Source: Aeromicrobium sp.
Lineage (GTDB): Bacteria > Actinomycetota > Actinomycetes > Propionibacteriales > Nocardioidaceae
Assembly (NCBI GenBank): GCA_014377785.1
Contig: JACMOZ010000150.1
Coordinates: 1-47,702 of the forward strand
Reading direction: 5' to 3'
DNA length: 47,702 nt
Shown here: piece by piece, positions 440-15,952 of the stretch
Layout of the letters: every line of letters starts with the position of its first letter
Numbering within the stretch: position 1 is the first letter of the stretch
Translations under genes and position numbers: made by a program
The notes under the pieces: model-generated
What the model saw: only the letters and a program-made list of their open reading frames with translations
Databases searched by the model: none
What the model was told of the DNA's origin: nothing

Positions 440-458
440 TAAGGTTAGGCATACCTGA
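440..458 (+). promoter_or_regulatory. IdeR/DtxR iron box upstream of the iron ABC transporter operon
   Basis: The 19-mer TAAGGTTAGGCATACCTGA closely matches the actinobacterial IdeR/DtxR consensus TTAGGTTAGGCTAACCTAA. It runs into a -10-like TGATAAT at 456-462, so a bound repressor would cover the promoter. The expected behaviour is repression when Fe(II) is replete and expression when iron is scarce. The regulator gene itself is not in the window. Confidence 0.85.
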
Positions 459-487
459 TAATGCCCACGAGGAACGGTAATCACCAC

Positions 488-1495
488 ATGAGACGAATAC
501 TGGCCGCCACAGTGGCAGTTGTAGCGATGGTCCCCATGCTCGCCGCGTGCGGGAGCAGTAACGACAAGCCATTTATCACGGTTTACAACGCCCAGCACAA
601 GGAACTCCTGGATGAAATGGTGCCCGGTTTCACGAAGGAAACGGGTATCGACGTCAAACTGCGAAACGGCGACGATTTCGAATTGGCCAATCAACTCGTG
701 CAGGAAGGCTCGGCTTCGCCGGCCGATGTGTTCCTCACCGAAAATTCGCCGGCGATGTCTCTCGTGGACCGTAAAGGCCTCTTCGCCTCTGTTGACAAGT
801 CAACGCTCGCGCAGGTCCCCGCGCAATATTCACCCTCGACCGGCAACTGGGCCGGTTTCGCCGCACGTTCGACGGTCCTGGCCTACAACACCGCTGCGGT
901 GAAAGACGCCGAACTTCCGGCGTCGATTCTCGATCTGGCCAATCCCGAATGGAAGGGCAAAGTCGCTTTCTCGCCGACCGGCGCCGACTTCCAGGCCATT
1001 GTGAGTGCCGTGCTCGAAACCAGTGGTGAAGCCGCGACCAAGACCTGGCTCGCGGGCCTTAAGACCAATGGAACTGTCTATGACGGCAACAGCACTGTGA
1101 TGAAAGCGGTCAACTCCGGCGAGGTCGAGGTTGGCGTTATTTACCACTACTACTGGTACGGCGATCAGGCCGAGTCCGGCGCCAACAGCGACAACATCAA
1201 AATCCACTTCTTTGGCAACAAGGACCCGGGTGCCTTCGTCAGCGTTTCCGGCGCCGGCGCACTCAAGTCGAGTGACAAGTTGAGCGATGCGCAGAAGTTC
1301 CTCAAGTATCTGAACGGCACTACCGGACAGCAGGCCCTTGCCGACGGCAAAGCCTTTGAATATCCGATTAACCCGGCCGTAGCAGTGAAGTCACCGGTCA
1401 AACCGTTCGGCGAACTCGATCCGCCTATCATCGACGTTGCCAACCTCAACGGCCCGAAGGTGATTTCGATGATGCAGGAAGCCGGTTTCCTCTGA
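488..1495 (+). CDS. Ferric-iron ABC transporter, substrate-binding lipoprotein (FbpA-like)
   Basis: This is a 335-residue extracellular solute-binding lipoprotein of the FbpA/SfuA/AfuA type that would capture Fe(III) outside the membrane. It starts MRRILAATV and reaches a lipobox LAAC at about residue 20. The motif HYYWYGDQ near residue 228 holds the adjacent tyrosines that usually ligate iron. The ATG at 488 is preferred over one at 461: it follows a GAGGAACGG Shine-Dalgarno and places the signal peptide at the N terminus. It is the first gene of a three-gene operon whose promoter carries an IdeR box. A neighbouring permease with two fused domains and a TOBE-containing ATPase support the Fe(III) assignment. 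The exact substrate (free Fe(III) or a complex) is not visible. Confidence 0.85.
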   Translation: MRRILAATVAVVAMVPMLAACGSSNDKPFITVYNAQHKELLDEMVPGFTKETGIDVKLRNGDDFELANQLVQEGSASPADVFLTENSPAMSLVDRKGLFASVDKSTLAQVPAQYSPSTGNWAGFAARSTVLAYNTAAVKDAELPASILDLANPEWKGKVAFSPTGADFQAIVSAVLETSGEAATKTWLAGLKTNGTVYDGNSTVMKAVNSGEVEVGVIYHYYWYGDQAESGANSDNIKIHFFGNKDPGAFVSVSGAGALKSSDKLSDAQKFLKYLNGTTGQQALADGKAFEYPINPAVAVKSPVKPFGELDPPIIDVANLNGPKVISMMQEAGFL

Positions 1496-1500
1496 TCGAT

Positions 1501-3060
1501 ATGGATGCGCCGCTCGCACCGATCGGTGCGCCGCGCCAGCGTCGACTGGCACCGCCATTCCTGCTTGTCGCAGGCTTGGCGGTGGCAGTGCTGACCCTGA
1601 TTCCGATTGGCTTCATCGCCGTCTACACGGTGATCATCGGTCCGGGTGAGGCGTGGGACCTTCTCATACGACCGCGCATCGGCGAATTGTTGTGGAACAC
1701 GGCACGACTCGTGGTTGTCGGCTGCTTACTCAGCATCGGATTGGGCCTCGCCTGCGCCTGGCTCGTCGAACGGACGAACGTACCGTGCCGCCGGTTGTGG
1801 CATGTGCTGCTGGCCGCGCCTCTGGCAGTCCCGGCCTTCGTCAACAGTTATGGATGGGTGTCGCTGACTCACAGCGTCGAGGGATTCGGCGGCGCTGCCC
1901 TGATCGTCACGCTGTCCTATTTCCCGTTGGTCTATCTTCCGGTCGCTGCGGCGCTCCGGGGCCTCGATCCGGCCCTCGAAGAGGCTTCATATTCGCTCAA
2001 CAACAACGCCTGGCAAACGTTTTGGCGGGTTGTCGTTCCACAATTGCGTCCCGCGATCCTCGGTGGCACCTTGCTGGTCGGACTCCATCTGCTCGCCGAG
2101 TTCGGCGCCCTGCAGATGCTGCGGTTTCCGACGTTCACGACCGCGATCTATGACCAATACCGCTCGTCGTTCAATGGTCCGGCGGCCAATATGATCGCCA
2201 GTGTGCTCGTGCTCTGTTGCCTTGTCCTCCTGCTCGCAGAGTTGAAACTCCGCGGAAACAGAAGACTGTCGCGTGTCGGCGGGGGCGCAGCGCGGGCGAC
2301 ATCGCCTTATCGACTTGGCAGGTTCACCGTTCCGTCCCTACTTGCACTGGCCGCCCTTGTCGTCCTCGCCCTGGGCGTGCCGCTTGGGAGCCTCGTTTAC
2401 TGGCTCGCCGTGGGGACGTCAACAGCATTCCCGCTGGGCGCACTCGGAACCGCCGCGACCACGTCCCTGCTGCTCGGCGCGACCGCCGCCGTGCTGACCA
2501 CGGTCTTTGCGCTTCCCGTTGCGTGGATTGCCATTCGCTATCGCGGAGTCGCCAGCAACATCGTCGAGCGCAGCACCTATATCGGCAATGCCTTGCCGGG
2601 CATCGTGGTCGCGCTGGCCCTCGTGACCGTCTCGATCCACGTCGCCCAACCGATTTATCAGACGTATGTCTTGCTGGTGCTGGCCTATTCGATCATGTTT
2701 TTGCCACGTGCGGTGGTCAATGTCCGGGCCGCTTTGGAACAGGCTCCGCCGTTGCTCGATGACGTCGCGCACAGTCTCGGCGTCAGCTCGTTGGCGACAG
2801 TTCGACGCGTGACGCTGCCGCTCATGATTCCCGGCCTCGGTGCGGGTGGCGCGCTCGTATTCCTGGCGGTGGCCACGGAGCTCACCGCAACGCTTTTGCT
2901 TGCCCCGATCGGCACCACGACACTGGCGACTGAATTCTGGTCGAATTCTTCGTCGCTGGCCTATGGTGCCGCAGCGCCCTATGCGCTGTTGATGATCCTC
3001 ATCTCGATCCCGGCGACCTATTTGTTGAGCAGAAATGTGAAGGGTTCGGTCGTTCCATGA
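1501..3060 (+). CDS. Ferric-iron ABC transporter permease with two fused domains (FbpB-like)
   Basis: This 519-residue inner-membrane permease carries two repeated BinP-type transport domains, as in FbpB/SfuB/HitB. The first domain spans about residues 60-245 and the second about 320-510. Each ends with an EAA-type loop that docks on the ATPase: EEASYSLNNNAWQTFWRVVVP around residues 160-180, and DDVAHSLGVSSLATVRRVTLP around 420-440. About twelve hydrophobic segments are visible. The ATG at 1501 lies five bases after the lipoprotein stop, and the end overlaps the ATPase start as ATGA. A fused double permease next to an FbpA-like protein and an iron box is the standard layout of Fe(III) importers. 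Confidence 0.85.
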   Translation: MDAPLAPIGAPRQRRLAPPFLLVAGLAVAVLTLIPIGFIAVYTVIIGPGEAWDLLIRPRIGELLWNTARLVVVGCLLSIGLGLACAWLVERTNVPCRRLWHVLLAAPLAVPAFVNSYGWVSLTHSVEGFGGAALIVTLSYFPLVYLPVAAALRGLDPALEEASYSLNNNAWQTFWRVVVPQLRPAILGGTLLVGLHLLAEFGALQMLRFPTFTTAIYDQYRSSFNGPAANMIASVLVLCCLVLLLAELKLRGNRRLSRVGGGAARATSPYRLGRFTVPSLLALAALVVLALGVPLGSLVYWLAVGTSTAFPLGALGTAATTSLLLGATAAVLTTVFALPVAWIAIRYRGVASNIVERSTYIGNALPGIVVALALVTVSIHVAQPIYQTYVLLVLAYSIMFLPRAVVNVRAALEQAPPLLDDVAHSLGVSSLATVRRVTLPLMIPGLGAGGALVFLAVATELTATLLLAPIGTTTLATEFWSNSSSLAYGAAAPYALLMILISIPATYLLSRNVKGSVVP

Positions 3061-4100
3061 CCTCATTGACAATCAAGGGCATCACCAAGAGTTTCGGCGC
3101 CGCCACGGTCCTCACCGGAGTCGATCTCGAGGTTCCGACCGGTGGCATCGGCGCCATTCTCGGTCCTTCGGGTTGCGGCAAGACGACCTTGCTGCGCATC
3201 ATCGCCGGCTTCCTCCACCCCGATGGCGGCATCGTGTCGTTCGGGGATCGTACGGTCGTCGGTGACGGGCATTTTGTGTCGCCGCAAAAGCGCCGTGTCG
3301 GTTATGTGCCCCAGGAAGGCGCGTTGTTCCCCCATCTCGATGTGCTGTCCAACATTGCTTTCGGATTGCCGCGTGCCCAACGCCGCGGCGCCCATCTTGC
3401 CGAGCTGCTCGACCTCGTCGAGTTGCCCTCGGCGATCGCCAACCGCTATCCGCATGAATTATCCGGCGGACAGCAGCAACGCGTCGCCCTTGCCCGTGCG
3501 CTGGCGCCCAACCCGGCACTGGTCCTGCTCGACGAACCATTCTCCTCACTCGATGCCGGTTTGCGCGAAAGCACCGGGCGAGCGGTGGCCCGGGTGCTTC
3601 GTACGGCCGGAGCGACCGCGGTGCTGGTGACCCACGACCAGGGCGAGGCGCTGTCGTTGGCCGATCATGTCGCGGTCATGCGCGACGGCGCTATCGCTCA
3701 AGTAGCCACGCCGACGCAGATCTATCTCAATCCGGTGGACCCGGGCGTCGCCGCCTTCGTCGGTGGCGCGGCGATCCTGCCGGCCCAAATCGAGGGCATC
3801 AGCGCGCGTTGCGTGCTCGGCGCTCTCGCAGTTGAGCCTCAGCACGCCCGCGGCGAAGCCCTGGTGTTGATCCGGCCCGAACAGATTGCCATTGGCGCGT
3901 GCGGGTCCGGCGGAGTCGAGGCACGAGTGACTGACGTGAGTTATTACGGCCACGACACGGCGGTTCACCTGACGGTGCTGCCCGCCGGACCCGATGTCAT
4001 CGCTCGTATCGCCGGGCGGGAAGTTCCTGACCGGGGGACCCTCGTGGATCTCAAGGTCCATGGATCGGTCACGGTCTTCGCTCCGGCTGCGCAGTTCTGA
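3057..4100 (+). CDS. Ferric-iron ABC transporter ATP-binding protein (FbpC-like)
   Basis: This 347-residue ATPase energises the importer from the cytoplasm. Visible motifs are the Walker A GPSGCGKTT (about 36-44), the Q-loop YVPQEGALFPH, the signature LSGGQQQRVALARAL (about 137), the Walker B LVLLDEPFSSLD and the H-loop VTHDQGEAL. A C-terminal TOBE-like region (about 240-345) contains the IRPEQI motif common in FbpC/CysA-type ATPases. The start overlaps the permease stop by four bases, so translation is probably coupled. It is the last gene of the operon; the second iron box begins 28 bases after its stop. Confidence 0.88.
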   Translation: MTSLTIKGITKSFGAATVLTGVDLEVPTGGIGAILGPSGCGKTTLLRIIAGFLHPDGGIVSFGDRTVVGDGHFVSPQKRRVGYVPQEGALFPHLDVLSNIAFGLPRAQRRGAHLAELLDLVELPSAIANRYPHELSGGQQQRVALARALAPNPALVLLDEPFSSLDAGLRESTGRAVARVLRTAGATAVLVTHDQGEALSLADHVAVMRDGAIAQVATPTQIYLNPVDPGVAAFVGGAAILPAQIEGISARCVLGALAVEPQHARGEALVLIRPEQIAIGACGSGGVEARVTDVSYYGHDTAVHLTVLPAGPDVIARIAGREVPDRGTLVDLKVHGSVTVFAPAAQF

Positions 4101-4128: not shown

Positions 4129-4147
4129 TGAGGTTAGGCTAACCTAA
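4129..4147 (+). promoter_or_regulatory. IdeR/DtxR iron box in front of the A-carrier-acyltransferase gene
   Basis: TGAGGTTAGGCTAACCTAA differs from the canonical IdeR operator at one position and contains the perfect inner palindrome GGTTAGGCTAACC apart from its centre. It abuts a -10-like TAGGAT at 4148-4153, which lies exactly six bases before the GTG at 4160. A bound repressor would therefore occlude a leaderless promoter. This is the better of the two iron boxes in the window. Confidence 0.9.
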
Positions 4148-4159
4148 TAGGATGGTCGC

Positions 4160-6730
4160 GTGTTTCCGCAACCGTCAGCGTCGCTCACCGGATCGCGACG
4201 CCTCTTCGACCTCAGTACTTTCGGCGATCGCGTCGCGTTGACGACGGTCGAGGGTGAACTGACCTACAGCGAACTCGACGAGCGCGTGCGCGAGACAAGC
4301 GCTCGGCTCGGCACGACGCGCCGTCTCGTCCTGATTGCCGGGGCGAACGACGTCGAGACGATCGTGGCTTATCTCGCCGCCCTCGATGGCCGTCATCCCG
4401 TCCTGCTTGCCGCCGGTGACAGCGGCAGGCACCTGGACAGCACCATCCGCGACTACGACCCCGATGTGGTGTTTTCCCGTCACAATGAGGAGTGGAGCCT
4501 GACAGAGCGCCAAGAGGGCACGGCCCACCGGCTGCATCCGGACCTCGCAGTCTTGTTGAGCACATCGGGATCGACCGGCTCGTCGAAACTTGTGCGGTTG
4601 TCGCGCGACAATATCCGCAGCAATGCACTGAGCATCGCCGACTACCTTGGCATCAGACCGACGGACCGCGCCGCGACGACTCTGCCGGTGCACTATTGCT
4701 ACGGATTGTCGGTTGTCAACAGCCACCTCATCACCGGTGCCGGCCTTGTCGTCACCGACTTGTCAGTGGTCGATCGCTGCTTCTGGGACTTGTTCGACCG
4801 TGCGGGGGCCACAACTTTCGCCGGTGTCCCCTACACCTTCGATCTGCTCGACAATTGCGGATTCGCCGGCCGCGACCTGCCGCAATTGCGCTATGTCACC
4901 CAGGCGGGTGGCAAACTCTCTCCCGATCGCGTCGCGCGCTTCGCCCGACTGGGGATCGAAAGGGATTGGGACTTCTACGTCATGTATGGCCAGACGGAGG
5001 CGACAGCGCGGATGGCGTACCTGCCGCCCGCACTGGCGTGTGATCGGCCCGAGGCGATCGGCGTGCCCATCCCGGGTGGGCAATTTCGCCTGGATCCGCT
5101 GCCCGGCGGCGAGGCCGATACAGGCGAACTCGTCTATGCCGGATCCAACGTGATGATGGGCTACGCCGAATCGCCCGACGACCTCGCGCTCGGACTGACG
5201 GTGACGGAATTGCGCACGGGCGACATTGCCCGCCAGGACCCCGACGGGCTTTACGAAGTCATCGGGCGGAGGAGCCGCTTTGCCAAGGTGTTCGGTCTCC
5301 GCCTCGACCTCGACGGCCTGGAACGTATGCTCGCCGACCGCGGGACGCCGGCCCTTTGCGTCGCAGCCGGCGACAGCCTTTACGCCTTCTCGACACGTCG
5401 ACGGGATTTGGCGTCGATCGGTTCGGGTATCGCCGAACACTGCGGCATTCCACGCCGCGCGGTCCATACGAGCTTCATCGAGCGTGAGCCGCGGACGGCG
5501 AACGGCAAGACCGACTTCGGCGCGCTTGACCGGCAAGCCGGGATCATCGCCGACCGGCGGTCCATGCTCCGGTCGACACCGGAGCGGGCCCAGGTCTCCG
5601 TCGCCTCCCTGCGCGACCTCTATGCCGAACTCCTCGCCCGGCCCGACGCGACTGGGACGAGTAGTTTCGTAAGCCTCGGCGGTGATTCGCTGTCCTACGT
5701 GGAACTGTCTGTTCGGCTCGGCGGGATTCTCGGCCATGTGCCGCGCGATTGGCACACCCGGCCGATCTGCGAACTCGTCGATGAGACCGACCGGCCGCGC
5801 CGCCGGGGCGCGTTCCTTGAGACTTCGGTCCTGTTGCGTGCGGTCGCGATCCTGCTGATCGTCGGTACTCATGCCAACCTCTTCACGGTCCTCGGCGGGG
5901 CACACCTTTTGTTGGCGGTCGCCGGCTACAATTTCGCCCGTTTTCAGGTGAGTTCGGCCCCTCGGGTTGACCGGCTCCGACGCGGACTCGGCGCCATCGC
6001 CCAGATCGCCGTTCCCAGCATGATTTGGATCGGTCTCGTCGCCTTCTCGCAGCGAACATATGAGTGGAAGACACTGTTTTTCCTCAATGGACTGCTGGGC
6101 AGCGACACGTGGACCGACCAATGGCAGTTCTGGTTCCTCGAAACCCTGATCTGGACGCTGGCCGCGGTGGTGGCTCTGCTCGCAATCCCATGGGTGGACG
6201 TCGCCGAGCGAGCGTCGCCGTTCGGCTTCGCGCTCGGCGTGCTCGCAGTGGGTCTGGCATTGCGTTACGGACTGACCGGCATCGAATCCGGACCGATCGA
6301 GCGCTACATGCCTTCGATCGTGTTTTGGTGCTTTGCCCTCGGGTGGGCAGCGGCAAAGGCAAGCCGAAAGTGGCAGCGTGTGGTGGTCAGCCTGCCCATT
6401 GCGGCAACCGTCCCCGGATTCTTCGGCGGCGACGTCCAGCGCGAAGCATTCATCGTCGCCGGCATGCTGCTGCTCGTCTGGCTCACCGGCATCCAAGCGC
6501 CCAGGATTGCGACCGCGTCGCTGGGTGTCGTGGCGAGTGCCTCGCTCTTCATCTATCTCACGCACTGGCAGGTCTACCCCAACCTGGAGGTGGACCATTC
6601 GCTACTCGCGGTGATCTGCTCACTCGCCGTGGGCGTCGCCTATTGGCGGGCGTCGAGGAGGAGCATGAGGAGGCTGAACGGGCTGTTGCGGCCCAAACAA
6701 CGGCCTTCGATTCGTGTGCCTCTAGGTTGA
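4160..6730 (+). CDS. Iron-regulated adenylation - carrier - membrane acyltransferase (AT3) fusion
   Basis: This 856-residue chain has three parts. Residues 1-455 are an ANL-superfamily adenylation domain with LSTSGSTGSSK (133-143), YGQTE (276-280), RTGD (352-355) and the catalytic lysine in TANGK (446-450). Residues 485-545 are a carrier domain with the phosphopantetheine serine in LGGDS (506-510). Residues 553-840 are an acyltransferase-3 membrane domain with about ten helices and the family Arg (560) and His (571). The expected chemistry is activation of a carboxylic acid, loading on the carrier, and transfer by the membrane domain to an acceptor, like DltA, DltC and DltB in one protein. 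The substrate is unknown. The stretch TTFAGVPYTFDLL resembles acyl/aryl ligases more than amino-acid NRPS domains. A role in siderophore or envelope acylation is inference from the iron box. Confidence 0.8.
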   Translation: MFPQPSASLTGSRRLFDLSTFGDRVALTTVEGELTYSELDERVRETSARLGTTRRLVLIAGANDVETIVAYLAALDGRHPVLLAAGDSGRHLDSTIRDYDPDVVFSRHNEEWSLTERQEGTAHRLHPDLAVLLSTSGSTGSSKLVRLSRDNIRSNALSIADYLGIRPTDRAATTLPVHYCYGLSVVNSHLITGAGLVVTDLSVVDRCFWDLFDRAGATTFAGVPYTFDLLDNCGFAGRDLPQLRYVTQAGGKLSPDRVARFARLGIERDWDFYVMYGQTEATARMAYLPPALACDRPEAIGVPIPGGQFRLDPLPGGEADTGELVYAGSNVMMGYAESPDDLALGLTVTELRTGDIARQDPDGLYEVIGRRSRFAKVFGLRLDLDGLERMLADRGTPALCVAAGDSLYAFSTRRRDLASIGSGIAEHCGIPRRAVHTSFIEREPRTANGKTDFGALDRQAGIIADRRSMLRSTPERAQVSVASLRDLYAELLARPDATGTSSFVSLGGDSLSYVELSVRLGGILGHVPRDWHTRPICELVDETDRPRRRGAFLETSVLLRAVAILLIVGTHANLFTVLGGAHLLLAVAGYNFARFQVSSAPRVDRLRRGLGAIAQIAVPSMIWIGLVAFSQRTYEWKTLFFLNGLLGSDTWTDQWQFWFLETLIWTLAAVVALLAIPWVDVAERASPFGFALGVLAVGLALRYGLTGIESGPIERYMPSIVFWCFALGWAAAKASRKWQRVVVSLPIAATVPGFFGGDVQREAFIVAGMLLLVWLTGIQAPRIATASLGVVASASLFIYLTHWQVYPNLEVDHSLLAVICSLAVGVAYWRASRRSMRRLNGLLRPKQRPSIRVPLG

Positions 6731-12453: not shown

Positions 12454-13335
12454 TCACGTCGCACGCGACAACCAGTCGGCGATGGTTTCACCAATGACTT
12501 TGCCCTGATCTTCGGGCAGAAAATGGCCTGCGGCCTTGATCACGTGGAGAGGCTCGGACACCGGGAAAGCCTGTTCCATCGCCCGGCCGGTTGCCTCCAG
12601 CGGAAGGATCATGTCCGAGTCCGCCCACAAGAGCAGGATCGGCCGGCTGTCGGTCGTGAGGGCCTCGACCGCTGCGCGTCCCTCGATTGCTCCCGGCGCA
12701 TCGGGCGTCTGAGGTATGAGCGCGGGCAAGCTACGGGGACCGGCTTTGGACTCTTGTGACGGGAACGGCGCCTCGTATCCTGCGATGATCTCGGGCGGAA
12801 GGTCGGTAACACAGGCCGCATTGACCAGCATGCCGATCGGCAGATCAGGAGTCGCGTCGATGAAATTGCGGAACGCCTGCCAGGCATTGCCCATCTTCTG
12901 ATGACCGGTGAAAAGACCCGAATCCATGATGGCGATGCGCGAAATCCGGTCGGCGATCTCGGTTGTCGCGGCGCGCAGGCCGATCGGCCCGCCCCAGTCG
13001 TGCACCACGAGGGTGACGTCGCTCAGATCGAGTTCTTCGAAGAGCGACACGAGTGAGGCCAGCAGACGGTCATACGTGTACCAATCGTCGGTGGGCTTGT
13101 CCGAACGGCCGAATCCGGGCAGGTCCGGGGCGATGCAGCGGTGTCCCGCGGCGACGAGCGGGTCGATGACCTTGCGCCACAAATAGGACCAAGTGGGTAC
13201 GCCGTGCAGCAAGACGATCGTCGACCCCTCACCCTCGTCGATGTGGGCGAGCCGCATACCCTCCCACTCGCGATAATGAGGCACGAAACCGAAGCTGGGC
13301 AGGTTCTCGAAACGTTCGTCAGGGGTGCGATACAT
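12454..13335 (-). CDS. Haloalkane dehalogenase-like alpha/beta hydrolase
   Basis: This 293-residue hydrolase starts MYRTPDERF, as haloalkane dehalogenases do. It carries HGVPTWSYLWRK (about 44-55), the nucleophile Asp113 with the following halide-binding Trp114 in VVHDWGG, a second acid in LWADSDMILP and the histidine in AAGHFLPED. An aspartate nucleophile rather than serine, with Trp directly after it, separates this family from ordinary esterases. It should cleave carbon-halogen bonds to an alcohol and halide in the cytoplasm; the substrate range is not readable. An upstream ATG at 13353 is possible. The gene is convergent with the PAP2 gene, three bases apart. Confidence 0.8.
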   Translation of the reverse strand: MYRTPDERFENLPSFGFVPHYREWEGMRLAHIDEGEGSTIVLLHGVPTWSYLWRKVIDPLVAAGHRCIAPDLPGFGRSDKPTDDWYTYDRLLASLVSLFEELDLSDVTLVVHDWGGPIGLRAATTEIADRISRIAIMDSGLFTGHQKMGNAWQAFRNFIDATPDLPIGMLVNAACVTDLPPEIIAGYEAPFPSQESKAGPRSLPALIPQTPDAPGAIEGRAAVEALTTDSRPILLLWADSDMILPLEATGRAMEQAFPVSEPLHVIKAAGHFLPEDQGKVIGETIADWLSRAT

Positions 13336-13402
13336 AGACCGATCATGGTCCATAACGCTTTGTTTGGCGGAGGCAAGCCTCCTCATGGCCCGGGGCGCAG
13401 AG

Positions 13403-13780: not shown

Positions 13781-15952
13781 TCAGCGGGTCAGGCGTTCCA
13801 CGGTGCTGGTCAACGGCTCCTCGAGATACGGCGCGAGCGTCGTGACGATGGCCTTCGTCAGGTGGTGGCCGTCGTAGTAGGCCAGCACGCCGCCGATGAC
13901 TCCTGTGCAGCGCGTCGCGGCGCACAGGTGATCATTCATGTCGATGACGGTCGCGCGCGGATCCTTGAGACCGGCGATGGCATGTGCCGTCGGGTCCTCA
14001 CGGATCCAGTCGCTGGCCATGCCGGAGCACGCGGAGAGGTCGTCGGTGTTGCGAGCGACACAGTCGGGGACGTTGCCGATCGTGGTTTCGGGCATCGGCG
14101 TATCGCGCAACACCGCGACATTGACCCCGCTCTCGACGATCGGCTTGAAGTAGTCGCGGAAGCCCTGCTCCCAGATAGGGAGAGCCTCGCGTCGAGTGTC
14201 CGCGCCTTCGGGCAAGCCCCCGCTCGAGTTCGAGGTGAGGACCAGGTCGAAGTCATCGTTCAGCAGCTTGTCCCGCACCCTCTGCCCCCACTCGAAGCAG
14301 CCCTCGGACGCCCTGACGTCATCCCACAGTTCTGGGGCCCAACGCGCCATCGTCGGCGTGCATTGAGAGGCGATGTATGTGGTCACCTTCCAGCCGGCTT
14401 GCTTCGCGATCAGCTCGACGCCCGGCAGCCAATGCGCCGCGTGGGAGTTACCGATGAGGGCAATCGAGACGTCGCCATCGGGGTCGCCGGACACGCAGCT
14501 TCGGGTGCCTTCGAAGGGATCGCGTTGGGGACAGGCGCGCCCATACTCCACAGGCTTCTCGTCCTTGGCCTGGGCAGGCCCGGGAATGACTTCGTCGCTG
14601 GTGGTTGGTTCGCAGCCGGCGGACGGATCCAGGGCACGCACGCCGAAGCACGGATCGCTCCCCAGGCGCTCCTCGAACGTGGCGGCCTGTTGCGACAGGC
14701 GGTTGTCGATCTCCTTCTGCTGGACCACGGTGCCGGCACAGAGGATGGCCATGCCGATGAACGCGAGCACATACGTCGATCGGAGACCCGATTTCGGCAG
14801 CGGCCGGAAGCGGTCCTCGATGTAGGTCTTGGTGAATGCTGCGAGGGCCAAGGTGGCGAGCAGGATGACGAGCTTGTCGAGACGGCCGAGCTCGCCGCCG
14901 CTGACATGTGGCAGCAGCACGATCATGGGCCAGTGCCACAGGTAGACCGAGTAGGAGAGGTCACCGAGAATCTGGGCGGGCCTGTTGGCCAGCAGCCCGT
15001 CTGCGGGAACCGGGTTGCTGGGTGCACCGATGCCGATCAGCAGGGCGACGCCGAGTACGGGTACCAAGGCATGCCAACCGGGAAACGGTGTCGCACCCGA
15101 GTAGGTGAACGCAGAGAACATGATGGCGCCCAGTCCGACCGCGATCGACACCGAACGGGGCACGCCGTATGCGGCGAAGGGCAGGAGTCGTCGCTGTTGC
15201 TGCGCGCGCAGGGTCATGAGGCAGGCGACCAGGCCGCCGACGCCGAGCTCCCAGATGCGGGTGGGCGTGACGAAGAAAGCACTCGCCGGAGTCTGAGACG
15301 TCGCAACGACCGAATACATGAAGGAGATGCCGACGACCGCTCCCAGACCGACCGTTGTGATCTTCAGCGAGTTGAGGCCACGCCGACGGGCGAGCAAGCC
15401 GAGCAGGAGGATCAGGATCGGCCAGGCGAGGTAGAACTGCTCCTCCACCGACAGCGACCAGAAGTGCTGGACGGGGGACGGGACGTCGGCTGCCGCCAGG
15501 TAGTCGGTGGAGGATCCGGCGAGGCTCCAGTTGACGACATACAACGTCGCGGACCTGATCTCGCGGGCGGTTTGTCCCCAGTCCGTCTCGGGCGCGATCA
15601 GGCGGGAGGCGATGAGCGTGACAGCAAGAACCAGGAAGGACGCGGGCAACAGGCGTCGGATTCGCCGAGCCCAGAAGGTCGCGAGTCCCCCGAAGGATGT
15701 TGGTGGTCGGGCGATCAGGTGCGAGGTGATCAGGAAGCCTGAGATGACGAAGAAGATGTCGACGCCGATGTAGCCGCCGCCGAGACGGTTGGGCCACAGG
15801 TGGAAGAGCAGCACGAGCGACACGGCCAGCGCCCGTAGACCCTGGATGTCGGCTCGGAAGTCCGATGCCTGGCGTATCCGGGTCGCCGGGGTCGTGTCGA
15901 TGCGACGACCATCCGCTTCCGCGACTGCTAGGCGCGTCTCGGAGGCAGGCAT
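13781..15952 (-). CDS. OafA-like membrane acyltransferase with SGNH hydrolase domain
   Basis: This 723-residue envelope O-acyltransferase has two parts. Residues 30-410 are an acyltransferase-3 domain with IQGLRALAVSLVLLFHLWP (the family Arg and His) and GVDIFFVISGFLIT, about ten membrane helices. After about residue 430 comes an exported SGNH domain with GNSHAAHW near residue 500 (nucleophile serine) and YYDGHHLT near 690 (Asp/His). Proteins of this layout O-acetylate surface polysaccharides or peptidoglycan-linked glycans. Leucine is mostly CTG/CTC in its first 70 codons, whereas neighbouring genes use TTG often, so it may have been acquired separately. It lies next to the tRNA-Ser/ffs pair. 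The weak Shine-Dalgarno leaves the start slightly uncertain. Confidence 0.85.
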   Translation of the reverse strand: MPASETRLAVAEADGRRIDTTPATRIRQASDFRADIQGLRALAVSLVLLFHLWPNRLGGGYIGVDIFFVISGFLITSHLIARPPTSFGGLATFWARRIRRLLPASFLVLAVTLIASRLIAPETDWGQTAREIRSATLYVVNWSLAGSSTDYLAAADVPSPVQHFWSLSVEEQFYLAWPILILLLGLLARRRGLNSLKITTVGLGAVVGISFMYSVVATSQTPASAFFVTPTRIWELGVGGLVACLMTLRAQQQRRLLPFAAYGVPRSVSIAVGLGAIMFSAFTYSGATPFPGWHALVPVLGVALLIGIGAPSNPVPADGLLANRPAQILGDLSYSVYLWHWPMIVLLPHVSGGELGRLDKLVILLATLALAAFTKTYIEDRFRPLPKSGLRSTYVLAFIGMAILCAGTVVQQKEIDNRLSQQAATFEERLGSDPCFGVRALDPSAGCEPTTSDEVIPGPAQAKDEKPVEYGRACPQRDPFEGTRSCVSGDPDGDVSIALIGNSHAAHWLPGVELIAKQAGWKVTTYIASQCTPTMARWAPELWDDVRASEGCFEWGQRVRDKLLNDDFDLVLTSNSSGGLPEGADTRREALPIWEQGFRDYFKPIVESGVNVAVLRDTPMPETTIGNVPDCVARNTDDLSACSGMASDWIREDPTAHAIAGLKDPRATVIDMNDHLCAATRCTGVIGGVLAYYDGHHLTKAIVTTLAPYLEEPLTSTVERLTR

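Follow-up and report, generated by a model that had tools for sequence, protein, structure and literature searches.

A single protein encoded in a 47,702-nucleotide stretch of Aeromicrobium DNA (contig JACMOZ010000150.1, hereafter the window) joins an ANL adenylation domain, a phosphopantetheine carrier domain and a membrane acyltransferase-3 (AT3) domain in one chain. This architecture, the catalytic residues of its domains, the iron boxes in front of the gene and the association of the gene with a SfuABC/FbpABC-type ferric-iron importer, both in linkage and in co-occurrence, are conserved among relatives (Table 1). We consider the chances slightly better than even that the protein is an iron-repressed, single-chain enzyme of acyl activation and transmembrane acyl transfer that works together with the importer.

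Table 1. The importer genes, the fused gene and their control elements (positions in the window).
Feature	Position	Strand	Remarks
IdeR-type box of importer, TAAGGTTAGGCATACCTGA	440..458	+	4 mismatches
SfuA/FbpA-type ferric-iron-binding lipoprotein	461..1495	+	SBP_bac_6 and others in Pfam
Two-domain ferric ABC permease, SfuB/FbpB type	1501..3060	+	BPD_transp_1; conserved neighbour
ABC ATPase with TOBE_2, SfuC/FbpC type	3057..4100	+	Pfam; conserved neighbour
IdeR-type operator, TGAGGTTAGGCTAACCTAA	4129..4147		between -35 and -10-like hexamers
-10-like hexamer TAGGAT	4148..4153	+	directly 3' of the box
Adenylation-carrier-AT3 protein, single chain, 856 aa	4160..6730	+	GTG start, one frame
Adenylation (ANL) domain	4199..5540	+	residues ~14-460; invariant R284, K450
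Carrier domain	5591..5794	+	residues ~478-545; phosphopantetheine site Ser510 (GGDSLSYVE)
AT3 membrane domain	5807..6727	+	residues ~550-856; invariant R560-X10-H571, W658, Y799

A Pfam search of the whole chain finds, in this order, AMP-binding (E 5e-40, residues 20-335), PP-binding (PF00550, residues 484-521), whose 20.8 bits are exactly the Pfam cut-off, and Acyl_transf_3 (PF01757, E 5.6e-9, residues 558-806), with 35.9 bits against a cut-off of 31. The sequence-only reading that we followed up had proposed these three domains in one protein and, from them, the logic of the Dlt system with an AT3 domain in place of MBOAT. The first proposal is confirmed and the second supported: the membrane part scores above the AT3 cut-off, has no MBOAT match in the Pfam profile search and, when searched on its own, stays AT3 by sequence with 39.3 bits to PF01757. 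No condensation, reductase or thioesterase domain was found in the protein. The ANL motifs (the TSGSTG loop, YGQTE, TGD, GRxxR and the A10 catalytic Lys) are all present, and the predicted adenylation fold matches ANL enzymes. The AF2 model of the full chain has a mean pLDDT of 89.6, and that of the AT3 part alone shows about ten long helices with a pLDDT of 94.6 and a pTM of 0.91. A Foldseek comparison of the AT3 model with the PDB matched no AT3-like solved structure; a further structural search gave a single match, an unnamed 637-aa viral protein (TMq 0.52).

The fusion is not an artefact of assembly or of one genome, as it occurs in complete genomes and on plasmids. With the carrier-AT3 part as the query, fused homologues were found in 24 of 59 genomes, i.e. 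the Aeromicrobium genome itself and 23 of the 58 relatives searched, and in 46 of a sample of 297 genomes of the class. The architecture recurs in near relatives as well as in many actinobacteria and in Alphaproteobacteria. Actinobacterial homologues are 43-66% identical over their length and, where the gene is uncut, form one chain of about 850-900 aa. They come from Streptomyces, Arthrobacter, Agromyces, Nocardioides, Pedococcus, Mycobacterium, Saccharothrix, Lentzea, Phytohabitans, Dietzia and, on plasmids, Rhodococcus; distant fused relatives with 31-37% identity are found in Rhizobium, Sinorhizobium, Mesorhizobium, Leisingera and other proteobacteria. RefSeq names the fused proteins only 'AMP-binding protein', and the open literature that we searched, which misses most subscription papers, holds no description of an adenylation-carrier-AT3 fusion. 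Among 44 fused homologues Pfam detects AMP-binding in all, AT3 in 40 and PP-binding in 39. K450, S510, R560-X10-H571, W658, Y799 and R284 are invariant throughout these 44 proteins, which span two phyla. In a tree of the adenylation domain all 44 lie on one side of a branch of moderate support (SH-aLRT 81), and 26 stand-alone relatives lie apart.

The membrane domain differs from characterized AT3 enzymes in one of the two motifs that define them. According to the AT3 literature, acyl-CoA is the donor, and R-X10-H and RXXR are the essential motifs (PMC9833829, PMC9558356); in simulations Arg74 of the latter touches the 3'-phosphate of CoA (PMC9833829). The R560 and H571 pair in TMH1 is retained in 44/44 fused proteins. 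The RXXR at the cytoplasmic end of TMH3 is absent from the window protein, which has GAIAQIAVP there. It shows the canonical spacing in only 2 of the 44 fused proteins, being out of register in the other 42, as against 13 of 13 stand-alone AT3s that served as controls; these are encoded by other genes within the same order, and their length marks most of them as AT3-SGNH types. Since the window protein lacks the motif and the family has it shifted, we class the domain, on its motifs, as a divergent form of AT3 rather than a standard enzyme of this kind. When the donor sits on the protein's own carrier there is no CoA nucleotide to be bound, and the loss of RXXR hence fits a carrier-fed transfer. 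Many of the fused proteins keep arginines at a distance of about one turn from the RXXR site, and given these, free acyl-CoA could still serve as the donor. One of the controls is encoded in the window itself, 7 kb away (13781-15952, minus strand). It is an ordinary AT3 of 723 aa (PF01757 E 1.9e-26) that, judging by length and layout, is probably an OatA-like AT3-SGNH protein. A haloalkane dehalogenase-like hydrolase, above the NCBIfam cut-off, is encoded at 12454-13386 on the same strand.

Motif alignment of the adenylation domain puts C180 of its A4 motif (HYCYGLS) at the position of the Asp at PheA-235. This residue is Cys or Ser in 44 of 44 fused proteins, and R284 is placed in the acyl pocket by the same type of alignment. 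NRPS A domains, OSB-CoA ligase, MatB and oxalyl-CoA ligase are among its closest relatives of solved structure. With the Asp that binds the amino group replaced by Cys or Ser, D-alanine is an unlikely substrate, and together with R284 the replacement also disfavours other alpha-amino acids. We infer as the likeliest substrate a carboxylic acid that bears another polar or anionic group. The nearest relatives of the adenylation domain overall, at about 40% identity, are stand-alone adenylation genes of Smithella, Clostridia, Treponema, Alteromonas and others, which often have a small carrier-like ORF just upstream. They were rejected as a guide to the substrate because their loci, unlike those of the fused family, lack a family-type AT3 and have a different, sugar-type context, with sugar and LuxE/LuxC-type neighbours by eye. 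In five of these loci (L139, L141, L143, L151 and L166, about 9-14 kb) the stand-alone gene follows the small carrier-like ORF and, by eye, precedes LuxE/LuxC-like ORFs among sugar genes. A carrier-bound acid-reduction pathway for surface sugars is possible there.

Control by iron is suggested by the operator of the fused gene, which has a single mismatch to the IdeR palindrome. A chance match is ruled out: none is expected from 100 shuffles of the window, the box is the sole match with three or fewer mismatches in the 5.0-Mb draft genome, and its position is conserved in relatives. The sequence-only reading had described a near-perfect IdeR box abutting the -10 of a leaderless promoter, and the description stands, as TAGGAT adjoins the box and the GTG start lies 12 nt past it; the transcript is predicted to be leaderless, starting at about the GTG. 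The draft genome encodes one clear DtxR/IdeR repressor, with which the box would fit an IdeR/DtxR regulon.

The same arrangement is found in the relatives. In a scan of 54 actinobacterial loci for an IdeR-type box with up to 5 mismatches in 19 positions, 38 loci had a box at the start of the fused gene, which amounts to 1.11 per kb compared to 0.018 per kb elsewhere. The loci without it belong to mycobacteria, Lentzea, Saccharothrix and some Propionibacteriales, in which the box usually precedes the importer gene that opens the operon. The leaderless layout also recurs, since in about half of the 52 box-bearing promoters the start codon, often a GTG after TAnnnT, is found 12-15 nt past the box. 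In Rhizobiales, 9 of 10 promoters of the fused gene contain TGA-N9-TCA (0.29 expected), which we take to be the IRO-box pattern of RirA. No iron box of a recognised type was found at the basal alphaproteobacterial copies. In S. meliloti the fused gene is located three genes before ndk, and as ndk is SMc00595 (PMC4941405), its position identifies it, by inference, as SMc00592. This 'hypothetical, transmembrane protein' has been listed, as induced together with hmuS/T/V and iron-uptake genes, among those responding to swarming conditions, and of all responses to these conditions the up-regulation of iron genes stood out most (PMC2848241). From the IdeR-type boxes, the RirA-type boxes and the SMc00592 listing, the same protein family appears to be under two unrelated iron regulators in two phyla. 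The modest Pfam scores of the carrier and AT3 domains in the window protein could also be read as those of a plain fusion of acyl-CoA ligase and acetyltransferase whose iron boxes are there by chance. However, distant lineages keep the boxes at a constant distance, RirA-type ones replace them in Rhizobiales, and the catalytic residues of the three domains are all invariant, which makes this explanation extremely improbable.

The substrate-binding protein (SBP) of the upstream importer matches the solved structure of SfuA with an E-value of 5e-115, and also YfuA, HitA and FbpA. Alignment to SfuA and YfuA shows that it keeps the iron-ligand motifs YNAQH, LTENSPAM and HYY, i.e. the His, Glu and Tyr-Tyr ligands of the SfuA/FbpA type. 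The earlier claim of a ferric-iron importer with an iron box of its own holds: the SfuABC/FbpABC genes are present and so is the box, which is weaker than that of the fused gene. ATG 488 is probably a better start of the SBP, as it would give a signal peptide MRRILAA...LAAC. A fragment 95% identical to this SBP is found at the end of another contig of the same draft genome (G000:C427:2-253) and would reflect a mixture of strains or a duplication, the draft having 7% contamination.

A SfuABC/FbpABC gene is found within 1.5 kb of the fused gene in 33 of the 54 actinobacterial loci, upstream and co-directional in 15, divergent in 14, downstream in 2 and convergent in 2; in the other 21 no importer lies within this distance. 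Rhodococcus plasmids have the order synthetase-SBP-permease-ATPase, with overlapping genes in R. fascians D188, and a Mycolicibacterium plasmid has SBP-permease-ATPase-synthetase. Among the 59 genomes, the importer SBP is present in 23 of the 24 with the fused gene and in 7 of the 35 that lack it (Fisher p 3e-9, relatedness ignored). None of the proteobacterial fused copies was seen to have a complete importer next to it. On the 165-kb plasmid of R. fascians D188 the four-gene operon of fused gene and SfuABC (L170 11968-18234) adjoins cadmium-type metal genes and an Nramp transporter. No other neighbour, a DltD-like partner included, recurs in the family loci as widely as the importer, and no exporter or precursor gene recurrently adjoins the fused gene. 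As the importer is the only widely recurring partner, the substrate and the acceptor are probably to be sought among common metabolites or components of the envelope.

These data also bear on a reading in which the enzyme modifies the envelope in iron starvation without capturing iron, acylation of a glycan or lipid altering surface charge, permeability or biofilm, and in which the importer adjoins it merely through shared membership of the iron regulon. AT3 domains are known as envelope acylators (PMC9558356), about 40% of the actinobacterial loci have no importer nearby, and basal relatives have neighbours that resemble glycosyltransferase, flippase or AT3 genes. On the other hand, linkage in four arrangements, the Rhodococcus operon and the co-occurrence across genomes are more than regulon membership alone would need, and we regard this reading as quite unlikely. 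The three basal alphaproteobacterial copies in question (L115 8800-19607, L121 4587-8765 and L128 5149-12739) are beside flippase-, glycosyltransferase- or AT3-like ORFs by eye. Because such relatives lack a recognised iron box and adjoin glycan-type genes, the ancestral role may have been plain glycan acylation.

The sequence-only reading had proposed that iron starvation switches on the acyl modification, with an acylated siderophore or a modified envelope glycan as its possible product, and the analyses reported here agree with it. The explanation that we favour, an enzyme that works with the importer, would operate as follows. At low iron IdeR, or RirA in rhizobia, would leave the operator. 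The cytosolic adenylation domain would activate a carboxylic acid, probably not an alpha-amino acid and probably one that bears a further polar or anionic group, and transfer it to the phosphopantetheine arm that the protein itself carries at Ser510. From this arm the AT3 domain would draw the acyl group through its membrane pore (R560/H571) and attach it to an acceptor on the outer side. The product of this acylation, which may be an envelope glycan, a lipid or a small released molecule, would present ferric iron to the importer lipoprotein. The transfer from carrier to AT3, the outward direction and the role of the product in iron capture are, like the substrate class, what we infer from the conserved features. 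The loci without an importer, the proteobacterial copies without a complete one and the basal relatives among glycan-type genes count against this explanation.

The small-molecule branch of the favoured explanation can also be taken on its own, and the likelihoods that we assign to the two overlap. The protein would then be a minimal siderophore synthetase that couples an activated chelating acid (e.g. a di- or hydroxy-carboxylate) with a small acceptor, which could be an amine, an alcohol or an amino acid. The product would be soluble and leave the cell, and SfuABC would either re-import it as the ferric complex or strip the iron from it. A synthetase and an importer under iron boxes are the usual layout of synthesis and uptake, and the adenylation domain, in whose pocket motif alignment places an invariant Arg, has MatB, oxalyl-CoA and OSB-CoA ligases among its nearest solved relatives. 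A further point in favour is that no other siderophore synthetase was found. The window holds no other NRPS or siderophore gene, as had been claimed from the sequence, and a domain search extends this to the whole draft genome, where neither an NRPS condensation domain nor an IucA/IucC (NIS) synthetase, and thus no cluster of either kind, was found; two genes of the ACPS/PPTase fold are present. However, AT3 proteins in the literature act mostly on extracytoplasmic sugars, the ligand of SfuA/FbpA proteins is bare Fe3+ and not a siderophore, and the fused gene has no recurrent exporter or precursor gene beside it. We regard a siderophore synthetase proper as unlikely.

Taken together, the fused protein is probably an overlooked part of iron acquisition in actinobacteria and rhizobia; if so, it would have escaped notice because it has no condensation or NIS domain to mark it. 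More tentatively, and with clearly less than even confidence, we suggest an undescribed mode of iron acquisition under IdeR/RirA control: the membrane enzyme would put a carrier-charged chelating acid on the cell face or on a small exported acceptor, with the carrier thioester as the donor of AT3, and the resulting ligand would hand iron to SfuABC. If this is true, soil actinobacteria, mycobacteria and rhizobia share a common iron-acquisition component that is annotated as 'AMP-binding protein', and this could help to explain how SfuABC is supplied in genomes without either type of siderophore synthetase, such as that of the window. It would also mean that an AT3 can be fed by a built-in carrier and not by acyl-CoA, so that the transfer step becomes testable in one polypeptide with the donor covalently held.

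Several known systems resemble parts of this one. As in DltA-DltC-DltB(-DltD), an adenylation domain would charge a phosphopantetheine carrier, from which a polytopic membrane protein would transfer the acyl group outside the cell. However, the fused protein is one chain with AT3 in place of MBOAT, has no recurrent DltD-like partner, carries an iron-type box on its gene and has Cys/Ser (C180) where DltA has the Asp that binds the alpha-amino group. With OafA/OafB and OatA (PF01757/TmAT) it shares a membrane domain with about ten helices predicted in the model, the invariant R-X10-H and a Pfam score above the cut-off, but it has its own activating and carrier domains and lacks the RXXR, which is displaced in the family; the AT3 fusions named in the literature are those with SGNH, alanine racemase and eukaryotic NRF, none with an adenylation-carrier unit. 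The neighbouring importer is by its match to SfuA and its retained iron ligands a clear member of the SfuABC/FbpABC/HitABC kind, from which it differs in its link to an acyl-transfer synthetase, and we know of no importer of the SfuABC kind described with a dedicated acyltransferase. A-T-R carboxylate reductases and the epsilon-poly-lysine synthetase Pls likewise have a short adenylation-carrier module with a terminal domain that fixes the fate of the thioester. Compared to such NRPS-like modules, the fused protein ends in a membrane AT3, has a non-amino-acid pocket and does without condensation, reductase and thioesterase domains. In summary, the parts are ordinary, whereas their combination is new, conserved and apparently under the control of iron; it would work like Dlt but is not Dlt.
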